NCBI RefSeq assembly: GCF_002266465.3
Contig: NZ_CP029427.2
Coordinates: forward strand, 5,210,501 to 5,274,500
Length of the DNA: 64,000 nt
Direction of reading: 5' to 3'
Origin: Bradyrhizobium symbiodeficiens
GTDB lineage: Bacteria > Pseudomonadota > Alphaproteobacteria > Rhizobiales > Xanthobacteraceae
In this document: in pieces, positions 6,278 through 42,215 of the stretch
Numbering within the stretch: position 1 is the first letter of the stretch
Layout of the letters: each line of letters begins with the position of its first letter
Translations under genes and position numbers: made by a program
The notes under the pieces: model-generated
Databases searched by the model: none
What the model was told of the DNA's origin: nothing
The model's input: the letters and a program-made list of their open reading frames with translations, nothing else

Positions 6278-7320
6278 CCGAATACGTCCTGGAGCACGCC
6301 TCCCCGGACCACGGCAACGCCATCGAGCTCGATCGTCGTTCCCATCATCGGCAGATCGAAATGCCCCGCCGTGTAGCGGCCGGCGAATTCGTTGGCGCCG
6401 GTCGAGAACAGGAAATTACCGGAGACGGCTCGGATCTCCGTGCCATTGGTGTCGCGCTGGTCGTACATCGACAGCGCTTCATAACGCGCACCCGGGTTCA
6501 TGCCGAAACCGACATGCGAGACCGCATAGGCCTCGCGATCGCCCCAAGCCGCAAGATAGGCACGCATCATTGCGGCGTCCGTGCCTTCGCCTTCGAGTTC
6601 GACGACATAGTCGTCTTTCAAGGTCATCGTCACCGGCGACGTCAGATAGCGCTTGAAGGTCAGGTTGATGTCGCCTGGCGCCATCACCAGCGTTCCGTTG
6701 ATCGTCCCGCTTTTGGGGAAGCTGACGACGATTCCACCGGGCCAATGCGCCAGCGTGCCGGGCTTGTCGGTCCAGCCCCATACACCGACCGTGGACGCAC
6801 CGACCATATCGACATCGAGCGCGGTGCCAGCCTTCGAGGTCACCCGCATTCGCTTGGTCCCGCGCAGCATCTTGGCCGCCGCCCGAACGCGCTTCTCGAG
6901 CGCTGTATCCGGCACCATCCGCTCCAGCGCCTCGGGATGTTCGTTGGAGATCACCAGGATCCGCGCGCCGGCCTTGAGGATCTCCGGCGTCTCCACCGCG
7001 TGCATCAAGCCCTCGATGGTGCAGTCCACCACGAAACCAGCCTGCTGAAGCGCACTGATGACCGGACCAAGCTTCTGGATCGCCTCGCTCGCCCCCGTCG
7101 AGCGAACCGGAACGATATGCCGGTTCCGCGGTGTCGGCATTACCACGTGAAACGGCCGCGCGCCCATGCGCAGCAGCGCAAGCTCCGCCAGATGCACGTT
7201 CAGCGCACGCGACTGGGTTTCGGAGAGGATCGCCGCGGTATCGCCGGACTTGACGGCGCAGCGTTCAAAGATCTCGCAGAATGCGTCGATCCATTTTGCC
7301 TCAATGCGATCAGCCAGCAT
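6274..7320 (-). CDS. NicX-like ring-cleaving dioxygenase (2,5-dihydroxypyridine 5,6-dioxygenase family)
   Basis: 348 residues, close in length to Pseudomonas putida NicX and alignable by eye over most of its length: HWPGG near residue 192, GDINLTFKRY near 216, SHVGFGMNP at 268-276, GNFLFSTGAN at 301-310 and GHFDLP at 319-324. The mononuclear iron ligands reported for NicX (two His and one Asp, in SHIGWG and CHLDIP) correspond here to His269, His320 and Asp322. NicX opens 2,5-dihydroxypyridine to N-formylmaleamate with O2. Last gene of a minus-strand operon behind a NitT/TauT-type ABC transporter. The true substrate may differ, because other nicotinate-pathway genes (hydroxylase, maleamate amidase) are not recognisable here. 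Confidence 0.8.
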   Translation of the reverse strand: MLADRIEAKWIDAFCEIFERCAVKSGDTAAILSETQSRALNVHLAELALLRMGARPFHVVMPTPRNRHIVPVRSTGASEAIQKLGPVISALQQAGFVVDCTIEGLMHAVETPEILKAGARILVISNEHPEALERMVPDTALEKRVRAAAKMLRGTKRMRVTSKAGTALDVDMVGASTVGVWGWTDKPGTLAHWPGGIVVSFPKSGTINGTLVMAPGDINLTFKRYLTSPVTMTLKDDYVVELEGEGTDAAMMRAYLAAWGDREAYAVSHVGFGMNPGARYEALSMYDQRDTNGTEIRAVSGNFLFSTGANEFAGRYTAGHFDLPMMGTTIELDGVAVVRGGVLQDVFG

Positions 7321-7357
7321 GGTTCACTCCCGGTCTTCCGGTTTCTTCTTGGTCAGT

Positions 7358-8122
7358 TCAGGCCTCGGGAAAGCCCCGCAGCAAGTATGAGCGCAGCGCC
7401 CCGAGCAGGCCATTCAGGATCAGGCCCAGCAGCGAGATCGTGATCAGAGGCACGAACATGTCGACGGCTTGAAAAGTCCGCGCCGCGGTCACGAGCGCAT
7501 GCCCCAATCCGTCCGTCGACGTGATCATCTCGGCCAGAAACACCACGATGCAGGAAATGACAAGCCCGATCCGGCAGCCAGTCAGGATCGACGGCATCGC
7601 CGCCGGCAGCACCACCTTGAAGAGGATTTCGTAGCGTGGCGTTCCCGCTGCCATCGCCGACCAGATCAGCTTTTGTTCGACGGTCGAGGCACCATAATAG
7701 GTCGAGAGCAGAATGGGAAAGAGTGCGTCCGCAGCCACCAATGTGATCTTCGACCCGTGGCCGAAGCCGAGCAAAAGCAGGAGTGCCGGATAGAGCGCAA
7801 CCTTGGGCAGCGGGGCCAATACGCGGACGATCGGCCGAACCACGGCATTGATCGCCGGATTTGCGGCGGCGGCAATGCCGATGCTGACACCCAGCACGAC
7901 CGCAATCGCGAACCCTGCAAACAGCCGGATCAGGGTTGCCGCGATCTCCTGCTGAAACGTCCACGTCACGAGCTGCTGGAGCAGCCGGCTGAAGACGAAG
8001 CCCGGCGGCGGCAGCAAGACCGCGGGCGCGAAGCCAAATGACACCAGGCCTTGCCATAAGGCGATGACCAGCGCGATCGGGGCAATCCCAAGTAGGACGT
8101 TTGCGGAGAGAAGGCGCGACAT
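7358..8122 (-). CDS. NitT/TauT-type ABC transporter permease (second copy)
   Basis: 254 residues from ATG 8122, whose first bases overlap the TGA of the preceding permease gene (TGATG), so translation is probably coupled. Six hydrophobic segments and the EAA-like cytoplasmic loop (AAGTPRYEILFKVVLPAAMPSILTGCRIG) mark it as an inner-membrane permease of the SsuC/TauC/NrtB type. It follows a paralogous permease, so the transporter may use a heterodimeric channel, whereas many relatives use two copies of one permease. It is followed 37 bp later by the NicX-like gene. The imported ligand is unknown; small anions such as sulfonates, pyrimidine precursors and aromatic acids are typical for the family. 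Confidence 0.88.
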   Translation of the reverse strand: MSRLLSANVLLGIAPIALVIALWQGLVSFGFAPAVLLPPPGFVFSRLLQQLVTWTFQQEIAATLIRLFAGFAIAVVLGVSIGIAAAANPAINAVVRPIVRVLAPLPKVALYPALLLLLGFGHGSKITLVAADALFPILLSTYYGASTVEQKLIWSAMAAGTPRYEILFKVVLPAAMPSILTGCRIGLVISCIVVFLAEMITSTDGLGHALVTAARTFQAVDMFVPLITISLLGLILNGLLGALRSYLLRGFPEA

Positions 8123-8904
8123 CACGAGAAGCTCAGCGGCATGTCGAACTGAGGTTCGGACCAACGCACGAGTCTGGCACGAACCCTTTCAAAAATTGCG
8201 TCGAGGCAAATTCCCATCGCCCCCACGATGATGATCATAGCAAAGACGGTGTCGTACTGGCCCATGTCGAGCGCATTGAACAGAATGTTGCCGGCGCCGG
8301 ACTGGCGGGCGATCATCTCACTGGTGATCATCGTGATCAGCGCCAGCACCAGCCCCGTGCGGCAGCCGGTCAGGATCTCCGGCAGCGCTGCGGGCAACAC
8401 GATCCGCACCAGGCGTTGTGCGGGCGAAAGCCCCATCGCAGCACCCGACCACAGCATCTTCTCTTCAACAGCCTTGGCGCCCTCGAAGCTGTGATAGATC
8501 ACGGGGAGGCTGACGCCCAGGAAGATCACCAATGTCTTGGTAACATCGCCGACGCCCAGCCAAAGCATGATGATCGGCATCAAGGCGGCCTTCGGCACCG
8601 GATAAATCACCATCAGAAGCGGATTGAAAAAGGCCGCGACGCCCCGGCTGCGTCCCATTAACAGGCCCAGCGGAATCGAAACCAGCACCGCCACACCGAA
8701 CCCGAGCGCCATCCGGCGAAGCGACGCGAGGATGTTGATCAGGGATTCCCTGTCGCCGAGAATATCCGGAATTGCCCGGATCGCCTCAGTTGCCGTCGGG
8801 AAGCTGTCGTTCTTGAGCGCTAGGGATGCAATCTGCCACACTGCCAGCAACCCGATGCAGGCCAGTACCGGGGCGACCCGTCTGAGCAAGGCGGCCGGCG
8901 ACAT
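8122..8904 (-). CDS. NitT/TauT-type ABC transporter permease (first copy)
   Basis: 260 residues from ATG 8904, overlapping the stop of the ATPase gene in a TGATG; GTG 8907 is an alternative. An N-terminal membrane helix, five more hydrophobic segments and the EAA loop (GAAMGLSPAQRLVRIVLPAALPEILTGC) identify a BPD-transport inner-membrane component. It is similar in plan but clearly different in sequence from its downstream neighbour, indicating old duplication. With the ATPase at 8904-9749 and the binding protein at 11645-12628 it forms one transport system. Confidence 0.88.
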   Translation of the reverse strand: MSPAALLRRVAPVLACIGLLAVWQIASLALKNDSFPTATEAIRAIPDILGDRESLINILASLRRMALGFGVAVLVSIPLGLLMGRSRGVAAFFNPLLMVIYPVPKAALMPIIMLWLGVGDVTKTLVIFLGVSLPVIYHSFEGAKAVEEKMLWSGAAMGLSPAQRLVRIVLPAALPEILTGCRTGLVLALITMITSEMIARQSGAGNILFNALDMGQYDTVFAMIIIVGAMGICLDAIFERVRARLVRWSEPQFDMPLSFS

Positions 8905-33108: not shown

Positions 33109-36100
33109 TCAAATCAGCCAGTCATGGGGCGCAGGTCCAACGCCGTGATGCGGATCGGTAATGCCGTGGCTGGCGGCGTGCTCGTCGAATGAACCAGGGA
33201 CAATCTCGGCGATCATCTGGGGGGCATCTTTCTGACCGGGGGTAACGTGGGGATTGCCATGCTCTTTGGACTCGACGACCGCGACGCGCGTGGAAGGAGC
33301 CACGTCGTCATCGAAGCGGAACACTGGTTCTTGATCTGCGCTTCCAAGCTTGAATGCCGCTTTCACCGGCACAGCTTCCGATGGGTTTGCACCGGCATGT
33401 GCTGCCTGCTGCGCGTTGCCATGATCCGTGTTGCCGTGAGTTGCGACGCTCTCGCTTGGGTCCGCTGCTTTGGCTGATGTTGAGCTGGAATTCGTGTGTG
33501 CCGCGCTGCCGGATTCGGCCGTCCTCGCTGCTCCTGGCGAACCGTCCAAAGCCTGAGAATGGCCTTCTTTGCCATCACTGACGCCGTTGCCGGGTTTGGG
33601 CTCCGCCCCGGCCATCTCCACGGCCACCACCTTGATCGGGCCCCGCTCCGCAACCTTCTGTGAGTGGCCGTGCTCCGTCTGCCCGGGCGTTTCGGCGCTC
33701 TCGCCCGCTTCCGCTCCTTTGGCGGAAGCCGATTGGCTCGAGTTGCCGTGCGCGCCACCGCCTGGCTCTGCCGTCTTCGCTGCTCCTTGCATACTGTCCG
33801 GCGCCTGGGAATGGTGGTCATTGCCAAGACCGACGCCCTTGCCGGGTTTGGACTCAGTTTCGGCCTTTTCCGTCGCCTTTTCCGAACCTGGTTCCGGACT
33901 GTGCTCAGAGTTACTGTGGCCGGTCCTGTCGGCGGTGTTGAAGTCCGGCTGGACCATCTCGCTCTGCTTCGTCGACGCAGCCCCGGTATTCGGGTGAGTC
34001 GGCTCATTCTTCCAGGAGAGGTTTTCCACCGTCGGAGGCGACGCACCCTGACCAGGCGCGATTGATGATCCGTAGGCGGGCACACCGGACGCACCCGCAT
34101 TCTCGTCTGCTGCATCCGCAGAATCGCTGCTGTAGGTGCCGGACTTGGCCGCCGTCCCAGAGCCGGTTCGAACGTGCGCGAATTGAAAGCTCAAGCCGTC
34201 ATCGGCCGAAGCGCTCCAAACGCCGGCCTCCCCGAGCGGCTCCTCACTCGCGTGGCTGCTGCTCATACTGGAAGCCGTCTCATCGGTTGCGGACGCCAGG
34301 ATCAGCGCCTGTTCGAGTTGCTCAAGGGTAACCGCGACAGCCGCGCCCCCCGATTGCTGAACGACATCCGACTCCGCAACGGAGACAATTCCCTGCATGT
34401 GGATTTCGAGCAGGCCGCGGTCTCCGACATCGAGGATGTGGTCGGTTGGATTCACATAGACGATCGTTTGATTGCTTGCGGGGTCATAGATCCAGGCGAG
34501 GGTATGTGGCGGGATGGATTTGGCTGCCGCCGTCAGATGCAGCCAGGCGAGTGCCCCGAAAGCCGCAAGATTGAGCCGGCCCGGCCCGGATGCGTCATCC
34601 AGGACGGAATCGGAAGAGGCAGACTTGGCGCCGGTCGGAGAGCGATCAACACCATTCTCGCTGTTACCCCCCAACAGCTGATCGCCGCTGTGTCCGCGCG
34701 GGCGGGGATCGTGACCCGGGTCCACTACGCCGACTAGTGCTTGGAGGTTGTGAGCCGCGGCGTCCGGGCCCTCTTCGCCCCGAACGCGCTCTTGCGCGAT
34801 GTTGTTCGCAGTGGTCACCGAGGCAGAATGCGGACCGAAATCGTGTGAAAGGAAATGAGGTGCTGCGTTGTCTGCGGGATTGGCATCGACATGCGTGATC
34901 GCGGCCAGTTTGGTGGCATTGTCCCCGATGCTAGCCAGGAAGCTGTCGATGGAAGCCTGATCCAGTTCATGCGACTGCGCGGCGTGCTGGACATCGCTCA
35001 GTTCGTAGATCAATGCCCCGGCGAGAGCGGCGAAGGTGCCATAGGCTCCGTGAATCGACATCGGATTCGAAGCAAGCCGCGGAAGGTGATCTTCCCCTGT
35101 ACGGTCACCTCCGCTCAGAGCGTCATTGGTCCCTCGCAGCAAGAGCGCCGGCAGACTTGGCGTGCCCGATCCTGCCACGACATCCTTCCAGGGTTTCGAG
35201 CCCAGGAGTTGCTCCGCTGCGCGCAGCGCTTCCATTGCCGCGGACGGGCTCGCGGCTTGGCTTGCTTTGGCAAGCAGGTCCCTCTCCGTGAATGGTGGCG
35301 TGTCGCCGGATTTCGAGACGATGAGATGCTGGAGAATGGCTTTCTTGCAGACCTCATATTCGGCGTGCTCGCCTTTCTGACCGTGGTCATCATCATGCGC
35401 AAATATGTCGTTGGCTTCCGACGCCTTGAGCTCGTCCGCAATTGCGACCGCCAGAATGCCCAGCGCGAGCACGCTGAAACCAGAGGTGCGTTGCAGCAAT
35501 GAGATGGTCGCGAGCACCGTTCTATTGGTGATCTCGAGCTTCTGAAAGATATTATGCAGATGGACTTTGACCGTCCCTTGGGAAACGTCGAGCTGGCGAG
35601 CGATCTCCTTGTTCGACATTCCTTCCGAGACCAACCGAACGATCTGACGTTCCCGGGGCGTCAACAGCTCGAGCATCTTTTCGATCTTGCTGCCGCCACC
35701 CGCTTCCCTGCCGGCGGGCGAGAGATCGGAGGGCTCCAGCGAGACACCGCTTTTTCCCATCAGCCGCAGTGATTGCAGCATGGTGCCGGGAGCGGCATCT
35801 TTGGAAATTGCGCTGCAAGAGCCGGCAGCGATCGCTGCGGTCAGATCGTGATTGCCGCCGGCTTCGGTAAAGAACACCAGGCGCGTGGAAAGCTTCTCGA
35901 CTTTCGCAATCGCCAGGATGTCGGATGCGGTCAGGTCCGGCAGGGTGTCGGCAATGAGTGCGACGTCGGGCGACAAACTCCTGATAGCTTCGAGGCAGCT
36001 TGTCCCGTCGCTAGCCGAGGCGACGATATCGAAATCCTGCTGTGTCCCGAGGACCGACTTCAGCCCCTGCAGGACGATCGGTTGCCGATCAACGATCGCA

Positions 36101-36186
36101 AGCCGGATGGGTTTGAGTATCCGGTGCTTGGCGGACGCGTCCAACATCGACTTTGCCTCGGCCCGGTCCTCTATGTCCTTCGGCAT
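33109..36186 (-). CDS. receiver-HTH(LuxR)-membrane-long tail protein (degenerate response regulator fusion)
   Basis: 1025 residues from ATG 36186 (ATG 36291 lies further upstream in frame). Residues 25-145 are a receiver domain, but the first acidic pair is D33-R34 and the phosphoacceptor position in PDVALIADTLPD is Ala79 with Asp80 next to it; Lys129 is kept. Residues 175-232 are a NarL/FixJ HTH (LTPRERQIVRLVSEGMSNKE). Residues about 236-251 (FSVLALGILAVAIADEL) form a membrane segment. A tail of about 770 residues follows, with a short hydrophobic stretch near 560 and two ~80-residue repeats of HSQA...GAA.TAE type near the C-terminus. Not a usual response regulator; possibly a membrane-bound transcription factor. 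Confidence 0.75.
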   Translation of the reverse strand: MPKDIEDRAEAKSMLDASAKHRILKPIRLAIVDRQPIVLQGLKSVLGTQQDFDIVASASDGTSCLEAIRSLSPDVALIADTLPDLTASDILAIAKVEKLSTRLVFFTEAGGNHDLTAAIAAGSCSAISKDAAPGTMLQSLRLMGKSGVSLEPSDLSPAGREAGGGSKIEKMLELLTPRERQIVRLVSEGMSNKEIARQLDVSQGTVKVHLHNIFQKLEITNRTVLATISLLQRTSGFSVLALGILAVAIADELKASEANDIFAHDDDHGQKGEHAEYEVCKKAILQHLIVSKSGDTPPFTERDLLAKASQAASPSAAMEALRAAEQLLGSKPWKDVVAGSGTPSLPALLLRGTNDALSGGDRTGEDHLPRLASNPMSIHGAYGTFAALAGALIYELSDVQHAAQSHELDQASIDSFLASIGDNATKLAAITHVDANPADNAAPHFLSHDFGPHSASVTTANNIAQERVRGEEGPDAAAHNLQALVGVVDPGHDPRPRGHSGDQLLGGNSENGVDRSPTGAKSASSDSVLDDASGPGRLNLAAFGALAWLHLTAAAKSIPPHTLAWIYDPASNQTIVYVNPTDHILDVGDRGLLEIHMQGIVSVAESDVVQQSGGAAVAVTLEQLEQALILASATDETASSMSSSHASEEPLGEAGVWSASADDGLSFQFAHVRTGSGTAAKSGTYSSDSADAADENAGASGVPAYGSSIAPGQGASPPTVENLSWKNEPTHPNTGAASTKQSEMVQPDFNTADRTGHSNSEHSPEPGSEKATEKAETESKPGKGVGLGNDHHSQAPDSMQGAAKTAEPGGGAHGNSSQSASAKGAEAGESAETPGQTEHGHSQKVAERGPIKVVAVEMAGAEPKPGNGVSDGKEGHSQALDGSPGAARTAESGSAAHTNSSSTSAKAADPSESVATHGNTDHGNAQQAAHAGANPSEAVPVKAAFKLGSADQEPVFRFDDDVAPSTRVAVVESKEHGNPHVTPGQKDAPQMIAEIVPGSFDEHAASHGITDPHHGVGPAPHDWLI

Positions 36187-36266
36187 ATGGCCGTGGCCGG
36201 GTGGCTTATTAAAATATGACGAGTGGATTTGGTTCCCTTGGCGGAAATCAGTTTGGACGGCAGCAA

Positions 36267-36602
36267 GTGACAAATAGCTCTTTTGACCCAATGGCCGTGG
36301 CCGTGGACTGGCTTGATGCCTACCGCGCTGGCGATATCGAAGCGATCTTGGAGCTTCATGCAGACGATGCCGTAGTGCACTGCGGCTGCAGCGGCGTCCA
36401 GACGATCACCGGCCGCGAAGCCCTTCGTGCCTATTGGATCCAGCACCTCCAAAAATATCCCGCGGGCACGCTGGACGATCTCAACCCTTCAGACCGGGGA
36501 ACCGTGATTTCGTACGTCACCAGTAAGGGCGTCATGAGCGCGAATTTGGCGTTTGACGCCGCCGGGAGGATCAAGGTTCTAGACTGCGGGCGCTTGCACT
36601 AG
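36267..36602 (+). CDS. SnoaL-like (NTF2-fold) protein
   Basis: About 111 residues from GTG 36267; ATG 36216 and ATG 36291 are alternatives. The pattern VDWLDAYRAGDIEAILELHADDAVVHCGC, then ITGREALRAYWIQHLQKYP, fits a SnoaL-like NTF2 fold. Such proteins are cyclases, isomerases or small-molecule binding proteins; the catalytic residues differ between groups, so function is open. Divergent from the receiver-HTH fusion gene with only a short intergenic region, which suggests shared regulation. Confidence 0.72.
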   Translation: MTNSSFDPMAVAVDWLDAYRAGDIEAILELHADDAVVHCGCSGVQTITGREALRAYWIQHLQKYPAGTLDDLNPSDRGTVISYVTSKGVMSANLAFDAAGRIKVLDCGRLH

Positions 36603-39431: not shown

Positions 39432-42215
39432 TCAGGCGGCACTGACCGCGTCGAGTTCCGGCGCCAGGAATTGCTTTTCAAACGACTGCGCAGGCATCGG
39501 ACGGCCGAAGAAGTATCCCTGACCTTCTTCACATCCCATGCTGACCAGGAAGTCGGCGGTTGCACGATCTTCGATGCCTTCCGCCACCACGGTGAGACCG
39601 AGCCGCTTGCTGAGGCCGATGGTCGAACCGACGATCGCCGCGTCGTCGGAATTCGAGAGCAGCCCGGACACGAACGACCGATCGATCTTGAGCCCGTCGA
39701 GCGGAAACTTCTTCAGATAGCTCAGGCTCGCGTAACCAGTACCGAAATCGTCGAACAGGATGCGGACGCCAAGCTCCTGAATGCGCTTGAACATGTCGAG
39801 CACGCGGCGTTCATCATCGAGCAGGATGTCTTCGGTCACCTCGATTTCGAGCAGGGACGGTGTCAGCCCCGTCGATTCCAGCAATGTCGCAACCGAATGC
39901 GCGAGATCGCCGGACTGGAGCTGCGACGGCGACAGGTTGATCGCGACGCGCACGCCGCTTCCGGACAGCTCCCAGCCGCGCGCCTGACGGCAGGCGGTTT
40001 CCATCACCCAGTTCGCGATCCGCTCGGACAAGGCCGAGGTGTTGACCACCGGCATGAACTCTCCGGGCGAGACGTAGCCGCGCACGGGGTGCCGCCAACG
40101 GATGAGCGCTTCGGCGCCGACAAGGCTGCCGTCGGTCAGACGAACCTGGGGCTGGTAGAACAGCTCGAACTCGCCGCGATCCGCGGCGAGCGCCAACTCG
40201 CTCTCCAGCGTCAGCCGGCTCTCCAGTTCCTGCCTGATCGCAGCCTCGAAGATCACATGGCTGCCGCGCCGCGTCATCTTTGCCTTGCTCAGCGCCAGAT
40301 GACCATTGCTGAGAAGTTCGTCGGCGCCCTGTCCGCCTTCGCCATAGACAGCGACGCCGATGCTGATTCTGACGCGATGCTGGCGCGTGCCCGTCGCCAG
40401 CGGCGTTTCGAATGCACGCGCGATCCGCTCGGCGAATTTCACGATCGGCTCACTGCCATCTGCGGCTTCGCGCGCAATGGCGAATTCATCTCCGCCGAGC
40501 CGCGCGACGATCGCCCCATCTCCGGCCTGCCCCTCCAGGCGAATGGCAACCGCCTGCAGTACGAGGTCTCCCGCCGAATGCCCCAGCATGTCGTTGATGC
40601 TCTGGAAGCCGTCGAGCCCGATGACGAGCAACGCGACCTCGCGAGGCTTTCGCTCCGCATTCGCGATCATGCCGACCAGGCGGGCGTGCAGCGTGTTGCG
40701 GTTGGCAAGGCCGGTCAGCGCGTCATGTTCGGCAAGATATTTGACGCGTTCGGCTTCGCGCTTGCGGACCGAGATGTCGCGCAGGATCGCGCCGTACTGG
40801 AAACCCTCCGTTCCCTGCCAGCCCGAAAAGCTCGCCTCGACGGGGAAGGTTTCACCATTCTTGCGCCGGCCCTCGAACTCGACGACGACCGCGCCGCCCG
40901 GAACCAGGAGCGCCTGGCGCGCGGCGTCATGCATGGACGGCCTTGCATCACCGTCCGCCGGCACGACGCACAGCGTTTCGAACGGACGGCCGATCATCTC
41001 CGCCGGCGCGTAGCCGAAGATCGCGCTCGCGCCGGGATTCCAGACCGTGATCCGATGATCCTCGTCGGTGCAGACGAGACCGTCACCAAGCGACATCGCG
41101 ATGCGGTGAAAGCGGCTCTCGGCGATGCGTCCCAGGAGACCACGGAAATCGATCTCGTCCAGCGCAATCGCGGTCAGATAAGCGACGATCGCGATGTGGA
41201 ACAGCGATGTGTCAATGACGAGGGACCATCTTGCCTGCACGAGGGCTGCGACGAGTTCGACAACCGCCCCGGCGGCGACCAGGACCGCGACGCGAATTCC
41301 CGGCGCGAGGCGGCGCCACGAATACATCATCAGCAGGCAGATCACGCCCAGACCCAGGATCATGCCGATATCGGACGTCCAGCGCAGCATCCGGTTCTGG
41401 AGGATCGATTCTGCGGCCAGCGCCTGGAGGACCGGCCCCGAGACGATCTTGCCGTTGGGAACGCTGAAGCGGTCGCCGAGCTCGAGCGCAGTGGCGCCGA
41501 CGATGATCTTCTTGCCTCTCAGCCTGTCGAGAGCAGCGGTATCGCCGCGCAGCACGTCGACATAGGAGACGCTGGGAATGGAGGCTGCACGAATGCTGAA
41601 ATCGATCAGGAAGGGCGGCCGCCGGTTGGCGTCCTGCCCGGCCAGCACGACGGCCATCGACGGCATCACGGCATCGCCAAGCTTCTCACCGAACGGATAG
41701 CGGCGAACGAGTCCGTCGGATTCGACTGCGACGTTGACGACCGCCGGCCACGACTGGTTGCTGAACGATTTCAGGGGACGGTTGATGTGGGCCGCACCGC
41801 CATTCGGCGTCGGCTGCTTGAAGGACGCCAGGATCGTCGAGCCGCCGGCTTCGCGAAGGGCCTGGACGAAGGCCTCGTCCGAAGCCGGATCCGAGGGTGT
41901 GCTGAAATCGACGTCGAAGGCGATATCCGCCGCTCCCGCCGCCTCGAGCCTGTGCAACAGCTCCGCGTGGAGCCGGCGCGGCCAGGGCCACACCCCGATC
42001 CGATCGATGGACGGCGCGTCGATAGCCACCACGACGACATTGCCGCTGGCCGCACGCGATTGCCAGCTGAACCGTAGGTCGGTGAGCGCGTTGCGAAGCG
42101 CACCATGCCATCCCGTGGACAGCACGATCGCAAGCGCGATCGCGACGAGAATATGCGGCCGATAGCGTTTCACCCGATCCTCCCGCGCACCCGCTTCTGC
42201 AGGTGCGTCCCTCAT
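39432..42215 (-). CDS. CHASE2-PAS-GGDEF-EAL dual c-di-GMP enzyme
   Basis: 927 residues. An N-terminal helix (about 21-40) and a CHASE2 sensor in the periplasm (DIAFDVDFSTPS, VGATALELGDRFSVPNG), three membrane helices near residues 285-350, a PAS domain (ITVWNPGASAIFGYAPAEMIG), a GGDEF domain with intact RLGGDEF, and an EAL domain with GAEALIRW, EVTED, DDFGTGYASL, LKIDRSFV and EGIE. Both halves look active, so it may make or break c-di-GMP depending on the signal. It follows the FecR-type gene by 16 bp on the same strand; such pairs are common. Confidence 0.92.
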   Translation of the reverse strand: MRDAPAEAGAREDRVKRYRPHILVAIALAIVLSTGWHGALRNALTDLRFSWQSRAASGNVVVVAIDAPSIDRIGVWPWPRRLHAELLHRLEAAGAADIAFDVDFSTPSDPASDEAFVQALREAGGSTILASFKQPTPNGGAAHINRPLKSFSNQSWPAVVNVAVESDGLVRRYPFGEKLGDAVMPSMAVVLAGQDANRRPPFLIDFSIRAASIPSVSYVDVLRGDTAALDRLRGKKIIVGATALELGDRFSVPNGKIVSGPVLQALAAESILQNRMLRWTSDIGMILGLGVICLLMMYSWRRLAPGIRVAVLVAAGAVVELVAALVQARWSLVIDTSLFHIAIVAYLTAIALDEIDFRGLLGRIAESRFHRIAMSLGDGLVCTDEDHRITVWNPGASAIFGYAPAEMIGRPFETLCVVPADGDARPSMHDAARQALLVPGGAVVVEFEGRRKNGETFPVEASFSGWQGTEGFQYGAILRDISVRKREAERVKYLAEHDALTGLANRNTLHARLVGMIANAERKPREVALLVIGLDGFQSINDMLGHSAGDLVLQAVAIRLEGQAGDGAIVARLGGDEFAIAREAADGSEPIVKFAERIARAFETPLATGTRQHRVRISIGVAVYGEGGQGADELLSNGHLALSKAKMTRRGSHVIFEAAIRQELESRLTLESELALAADRGEFELFYQPQVRLTDGSLVGAEALIRWRHPVRGYVSPGEFMPVVNTSALSERIANWVMETACRQARGWELSGSGVRVAINLSPSQLQSGDLAHSVATLLESTGLTPSLLEIEVTEDILLDDERRVLDMFKRIQELGVRILFDDFGTGYASLSYLKKFPLDGLKIDRSFVSGLLSNSDDAAIVGSTIGLSKRLGLTVVAEGIEDRATADFLVSMGCEEGQGYFFGRPMPAQSFEKQFLAPELDAVSAA

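Follow-up and report, generated by a model that had tools for sequence, protein, structure and literature searches.

A NarL-type pseudo-receiver regulator joined in one reading frame to a reduced RTX/VCBS-type tail in Bradyrhizobium symbiodeficiens

How might a response regulator without a phosphorylation site be controlled, and what becomes of a reading frame that runs on for hundreds of residues past its DNA-binding domain? The question is raised by an open reading frame (ORF) in a 64,000-nucleotide stretch of Bradyrhizobium symbiodeficiens DNA (contig NZ_CP029427.2, positions 5,210,501 to 5,274,500; here called the window), which encodes in one chain a NarL-type receiver, a LuxR-type helix-turn-helix (HTH), a short hydrophobic stretch, and a tail of about 790 residues. 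The ORF lies at G000:C1:5243612-5246686 of a single-contig genome of 7.03 Mb. A first-pass annotation, made from the window alone, had taken it for a one-protein signalling system of the ToxR/CadC kind. The reading that we prefer, at a rough probability of 0.45, is that of a pseudo-receiver transcription factor with a reduced RTX/VCBS tail, whose activity would be set by engagement of its C-terminus by a type I secretion system (T1SS), through export or stalling; within it, the architecture and the ancestry are well supported by sequence comparison.

The head of the protein is that of a NarL/FixJ regulator in its domain order. Pfam assigned Response_reg to residues 30-140 (E 4e-10) and GerE to residues 174-227 (E 9e-21), and the best solved match was NarL (1a04, E 1.8e-27), aligned over about 215 residues that cover both the receiver and the GerE HTH. 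In this alignment Ala79 takes the place of the phosphoacceptor Asp and Arg34 that of the second acidic residue, with the Thr/Ser and Lys positions retained as Thr107 and Lys129; the phosphoacceptor Asp and the acidic pair of NarL/FixJ regulators are thus missing. When 37 fusions were compared, Asp33 and Lys129 were present in all and Thr107 in 35, position 34 was occupied by Arg (31), Pro (5) or Gln (1), and position 79 held Ala or Gly throughout. The replaced phosphoacceptor, the Asp-Arg pair and the intact LuxR-type HTH, all claimed in the first-pass annotation, are confirmed by these data, and the head is, as read from the alignment, a NarL-family pseudo-receiver without phosphorylation chemistry, followed by an intact HTH. 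Most stand-alone relatives carry Asp at the phosphoacceptor position, and a second class of fusions (class II; L060, L061, L062, L063, and L064, about 530-730 aa) carries Glu, a possible phosphomimic. These class II proteins have lost the RTX-end core described below and retain the C-terminal Asp-hydrophobic motif where they are complete.

The fusion is a conserved feature of the genus. Of 266 genus genomes, 88 gave a match at E <= 1e-60, and in 86 of these it lay inside an open frame that spans 454-2144 codons; stand-alone matches at this threshold were few, and the other genera of the family sample yielded stand-alone heads only, with about 41-49% identity. The orthologue search proposed with the first-pass annotation therefore returned a conserved fusion in 86/266 Bradyrhizobium genomes, with orthologues that extend beyond the HTH. 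A sequencing error or chance frame was rejected, given the frame in 86 genomes, its single clade and a ratio of nonsynonymous to synonymous substitution rates (dN/dS) below 1. In a tree of the heads, all fusions fell into one clade (support 100/99) nested among stand-alone regulators, together with one long-branch outgroup row that the program flagged as unsure. Because of this single nested clade, the sequences point to a single fusion event followed by long retention. One stand-alone regulator, L066, also sits inside the fusion clade, placed in the tree next to the fusion from its own genome, which is most simply read as later tail loss, after duplication by its look. L066 (G020:C63:29373-30008) neighbours a T1SS operon that includes a 2449-aa RTX protein, and its genome also has the longest fusion.

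The tail has relatives of its own. BLAST searches with parts of the tail returned two sets of proteins, the fusions and headless proteins of about 860-1780 aa; the latter are of FecR type and combine VCBS/cadherin-like and RTX repeats with a serralysin M10_C end. The two sets are bridged by L050 (2122 aa), which possesses the receiver, the HTH, six VCBS repeats (E 6.6e-137), RTX repeats, and M10_C, and which shares 56% identity over 261 residues with the tail-only family; the less reduced fusions L047, L049, and L051 likewise retain RTX and M10_C. A query from the tail-only family matched 159/266 genus genomes, the genome of the window not among them. Left in the window tail are the M10_C-type core (residues 535-605), the C-terminus, and a two-copy repeat of about 84 residues, with copies spaced 249-252 nt apart and 72-74% identical, so that the repeat-bearing tail of the first-pass annotation (about 770 residues as claimed) is borne out at slightly greater length. 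Altogether, descent of the tail from FecR-VCBS-RTX adhesins of T1SS type is well supported by homology, and the tail was probably exported, at least in the ancestor. An AlphaFold2 (AF2) model of residues 1-661 had a mean pLDDT of 37 and, because of this low confidence, was not used for a fold search. Single-linkage clustering had offered the genes divergent to tail-only RTX genes as stand-alone regulators; they were rejected, as their sequences read as FecR-domain proteins. At the tail-only loci L053-L056, L058, and L059, a TPR protein comes after the divergent FecR-domain protein (ending LNICRGC), and this set is conserved.

Selection on the fusion was estimated by the Nei-Gojobori method from 271 close pairs (Table 1). 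The HTH, the receiver, the RTX-end core, and the last five residues are under purifying selection. The PrtG secretion signal has the form of Asp plus hydrophobic residues. An Asp followed by three of V/I/L/F/M/W ended 29 of 30 complete named fusions, the remaining one ending ELLI, compared to 1 of 420 background proteins; tail-only proteins mostly have like ends (DLIV, DLLV, DLMV). At the sequence level, then, the fusion carries a PrtG-type C-terminal motif, and such a four-residue motif is described as needed for export of PrtG by its T1SS (Ghigo and Wandersman 1994, as related in PMC5018854 and PMC3430570). Named T1SS C-terminal models gave no match. The composition changes abruptly as well: Cys residues number 11.8 per 1000 in the head (residues 1-230), close to the background of 11.0, and 0.79, 0.11, and 0.09 in successive parts of the tail (about 0.2 over the whole tail), the scarcity beginning at the end of the HTH, and the isoelectric point falls from 7.2 in the head to 4.8 in the tail.

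Table 1. Positions in the window, selection, and basis of the features of the fusion locus
Feature	Position	Strand	dN/dS	Basis or description
Whole fusion ORF	33109..36186	-		1025 codons counted from ATG 36186; likely start ATG 36147, giving 1012 aa
Pseudo-receiver, residues 27-140 (Asp33, Arg34, Ala79, Thr107, Lys129)	35767..36108	-	0.23	Pfam Response_reg; NarL alignment
Ala79 codon, phosphoacceptor position	35950..35952	-		Ala in 35 fusions and Gly in the other 2 (37 compared)
LuxR/GerE-type HTH, residues 172-230	35497..35673	-	0.105	Pfam GerE; strongest constraint
Hydrophobic stretch, residues 235-252	35431..35484	-	0.41	Homologous to part of stand-alone FecR-VCBS-RTX proteins
Second hydrophobic block, residues 379-400 (AYGTFAALAGALIYELSDVQ)	34987..35052	-	0.34	Resembles degenerate VCBS repeat end (GGYGTFTMTAAGVWTYTLDN), compared by eye
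RTX-end / serralysin M10_C-type core, residues 535-605 (RLNLAAFGALAWLH..PPHTLAWIYD..TIVYVNPTD)	34372..34584	-	0.215	Homology to M10_C of less reduced fusions and tail-only proteins
Two ~84-residue repeats in low-complexity Ala/Ser/Gly/Glu/His-rich tail	33405..33871	-		Repeat comparison
C-terminal four residues Asp-Trp-Leu-Ile (DWLI), T1SS PrtG-type signal-like motif	33112..33123	-	0.195 (last five residues)	29/30 fusions vs 1/420 background proteins
Conserved non-coding leader, candidate operator or 5' leader	36148..36216	-		TATTTTAAT..CGGCCATATGCCGAAGGACATAGA..CCGGGCCGAGG
Divergent SnoaL-like small protein	36267..36602	+		Shares intergenic region; adjoins fusion in 32/38 named loci

Some relatives of the fusion are found close to T1SS genes. 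Stand-alone sister regulators lie near PrtD/HlyD operons in genomes G005, G021, G126, and G020, and other sisters near a C39-type ABC exporter. The fusion itself is about 10-12 kb from PrtD/HlyD in G005 and G018 and within 12 kb in G019, and at five named loci it adjoins the stand-alone regulator of that island. PrtD-type exporters are also present in the genome of the window, one of them beside HlyD and RTX proteins. At a locus near 3.784 Mb of that genome (L208, positions 6890-8890), an RTX protein gene lies between PrtD and HlyD; its product carries a strong hydrophobic segment at the N-terminus, which is not usual in T1SS substrates, and is possibly a membrane-retained RTX protein. The window also encodes a CHASE2-PAS-GGDEF-EAL protein (39432-42215), about 3 kb away from the fusion gene, for which no conserved linkage was seen.

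The upstream region bears on the start and perhaps on the control of the gene. Codons 1-13 counted from ATG 36186 have a dN/dS of 1.3 and a dS of 0.16, compared to a dS of 0.3-0.65 elsewhere, and so behave like non-coding DNA, and in at least 6 of 19 aligned orthologue leaders the counterparts of ATG 36186 and ATG 36147 are in different frames; for these two reasons the true start is probably ATG 36147. The leader upstream of it (about 69 bp) has 32 invariant columns across 19 species, with CGGC...GCCG arms, and its DNA is kept even at loci with a different neighbouring gene. It may serve as an autoregulatory operator or as a translational 5' leader; an RNA hairpin was predicted, with no compensatory changes seen in the aligned leaders. 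The operator candidate CGGCCATATGCCG has 2 sites only in the genome of the window, near chance by estimate, and therefore no regulon was inferred from it.

How could such a protein work? We infer that the head would bind DNA without phosphorylation, probably at the conserved leader of its own gene and at genes for adhesins, T1SS, or exopolysaccharide. Capture of the C-terminus by a T1SS (PrtD/HlyD/TolC) would then take the place of phosphorylation in setting the activity of the regulator, either by pulling it from the cytoplasm or by parking it within the channel while the tail is exposed outside, and transcription would thereby be tied to secretion capacity or surface state. Work on eGFP-HlyA showed that T1SS export proceeds C-terminus first and that, when an N-terminal domain folds fast, the channel stalls once the C-terminus has emerged (PMC4648471), which makes either outcome plausible here. 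The stronger form of this proposal, in which the transcription factor is itself a T1SS substrate and the channel state, rather than phosphorylation, switches the pseudo-receiver and so directly sets transcription, is put forward tentatively.

Several observations weigh against control by T1SS engagement. The window copy has neither VCBS repeats nor GGxGxDxUx RTX repeats, the latter being present in L047, L049, L050, and L051, and the fusion is unlinked to a T1SS operon in most genomes, that of the window included. A few orthologues deviate from the C-terminal motif (HWLV, DLLT), and some tail-only relatives hold 7-14 Cys, so that avoidance of Cys is not absolute in the family and its low content in the tail is supporting rather than decisive. 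A folded DNA-binding head of 220 residues may block rather than allow export. Finally, the remainder of the tail evolves fast (dN/dS 0.48-0.68), as a vestige might. This last point, along with the loss of RTX repeats in the main clade, the shrinkage of class II fusions to about 700 aa, and the failure of AF2 to find a fold with confidence for most of the tail, would fit a pseudo-receiver regulator that stays in the cytoplasm and whose tail is mostly vestigial and disordered, the C-terminal motif being a proteolysis signal or a protein-interaction site. A vestigial tail is not expected, however, to have a constrained far C-terminus, and the RTX-end core is constrained as well; Cys is excluded from the HTH end onward, the frame stays open past the HTH in 86 genomes, and L066 shows that a head can occur alone, yet the tail is otherwise retained. 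We consider this explanation unlikely. The opposite simplification, a secreted or surface adhesin whose head is an added module at the N-terminus or a plug for retention on the cytoplasmic side, without a role in gene regulation, would account for the adhesin ancestry and the signal-like C-terminus and could draw on the eGFP-HlyA stalling precedent (PMC4648471). A constrained HTH is not expected of a mere plug, and the strong conservation over the GerE helices is hard to explain on that basis; a conserved leader that is a candidate operator also lies upstream. We regard this explanation as very improbable.

The ToxR/CadC-like interpretation turns on residues 235-252. As a Sec-inserted anchor, they would leave the HTH in the cytoplasm and the tail in the periplasm or at the surface as a sensor, the T1SS ancestry being historical only. 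Nearly all fusions have this stretch, with Arg/Lys bordering it towards the head and Asp/Glu towards the tail, and the low Cys content of the tail would suit such a location. Its length, however, is only 16-18 residues with a Kyte-Doolittle 19-residue mean of just 1.56, a borderline membrane span; its dN/dS differs little from that of the tail at large; and the region after the HTH, hydrophobic stretch included, matches the tail-only protein L053 (34% over 93 residues, E 7e-9, BLAST), so that it appears to be inherited from HTH-less proteins of T1SS type. A conserved extreme C-terminal motif would also be unexpected in a Sec-anchored sensor. The membrane segment of the first-pass annotation is thus real as a hydrophobic stretch, and its membrane identity is not established, because both stretch and tail are homologous to secreted-type RTX proteins. 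A Pfam scan of the whole frame found nothing in the tail, including no known periplasmic sensor domain, and the HTH is of GerE/LuxR type, not the OmpR-type winged HTH of ToxR and CadC. Of the one-protein fusion with an exported tail that had been proposed, the fusion stands as real and conserved and export of the tail as probable, at least in the ancestor; a Sec anchor and a periplasmic sensor are not supported, and signalling of the ToxR/CadC kind gives way to a reduced FecR-VCBS-RTX protein of T1SS type. Since the stretch is short and borderline and comes from a protein of T1SS type, this interpretation is less likely, and we hold it to be rather improbable.

Each half of the fusion is of a known kind, and the combination is the new part; in the open-access literature we found no described DNA-binding regulator joined to a T1SS-type adhesin in one chain. 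With NarL/FixJ regulators such as NarL, VraR, and DevR, the fusion has in common the receiver and GerE HTH over about 215 residues, and it differs from them by the loss of the phosphoacceptor Asp and the second acidic residue and by an exported-type tail of about 790 residues after the HTH. CsgD and VpsT, NarL-type pseudo-receiver regulators of biofilm genes, end after the HTH. They share with the fusion a degenerate receiver and a LuxR-type HTH and belong to a phosphorylation-independent class (PMC12632262), and unlike the fusion they have no RTX/VCBS tail. VCBS/cadherin-like repeats, RTX, an M10_C-type end, and the Asp-hydrophobic C-terminus are common to T1SS RTX/VCBS adhesins (rhizobial Rap proteins, LapA-like proteins, and Bradyrhizobium FecR-VCBS-RTX proteins), the less reduced fusions, and the tail-only relatives; the fusion has a DNA-binding regulator at the N-terminus where such adhesins have a FecR or retention module, and its window copy is without VCBS and RTX repeats. 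Like ToxR and CadC, the fusion unites in one chain a cytoplasmic DNA-binding head and a C-terminal part that is putatively extracytoplasmic; it differs by a NarL/LuxR-type HTH instead of their OmpR-type winged helix, by a borderline hydrophobic stretch, and by a T1SS-derived tail with a signal-like C-terminus. The logic proposed here resembles that of FlgM, a small anti-sigma factor that is exported by the type III secretion system of the flagellum, in that export would remove or relocate a regulator and couple transcription to secretion, with a DNA-binding protein and a T1SS as the parts, as a proposal only. If control by T1SS engagement holds, the fusion would be the first case known to us in which secretion-coupled regulation has a T1SS counterpart. 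It would then offer an answer to how constitutively competent pseudo-receivers are switched off, which is poorly known (PMC12632262), and it bears on the control of surface adhesins and exopolysaccharide in Bradyrhizobium.
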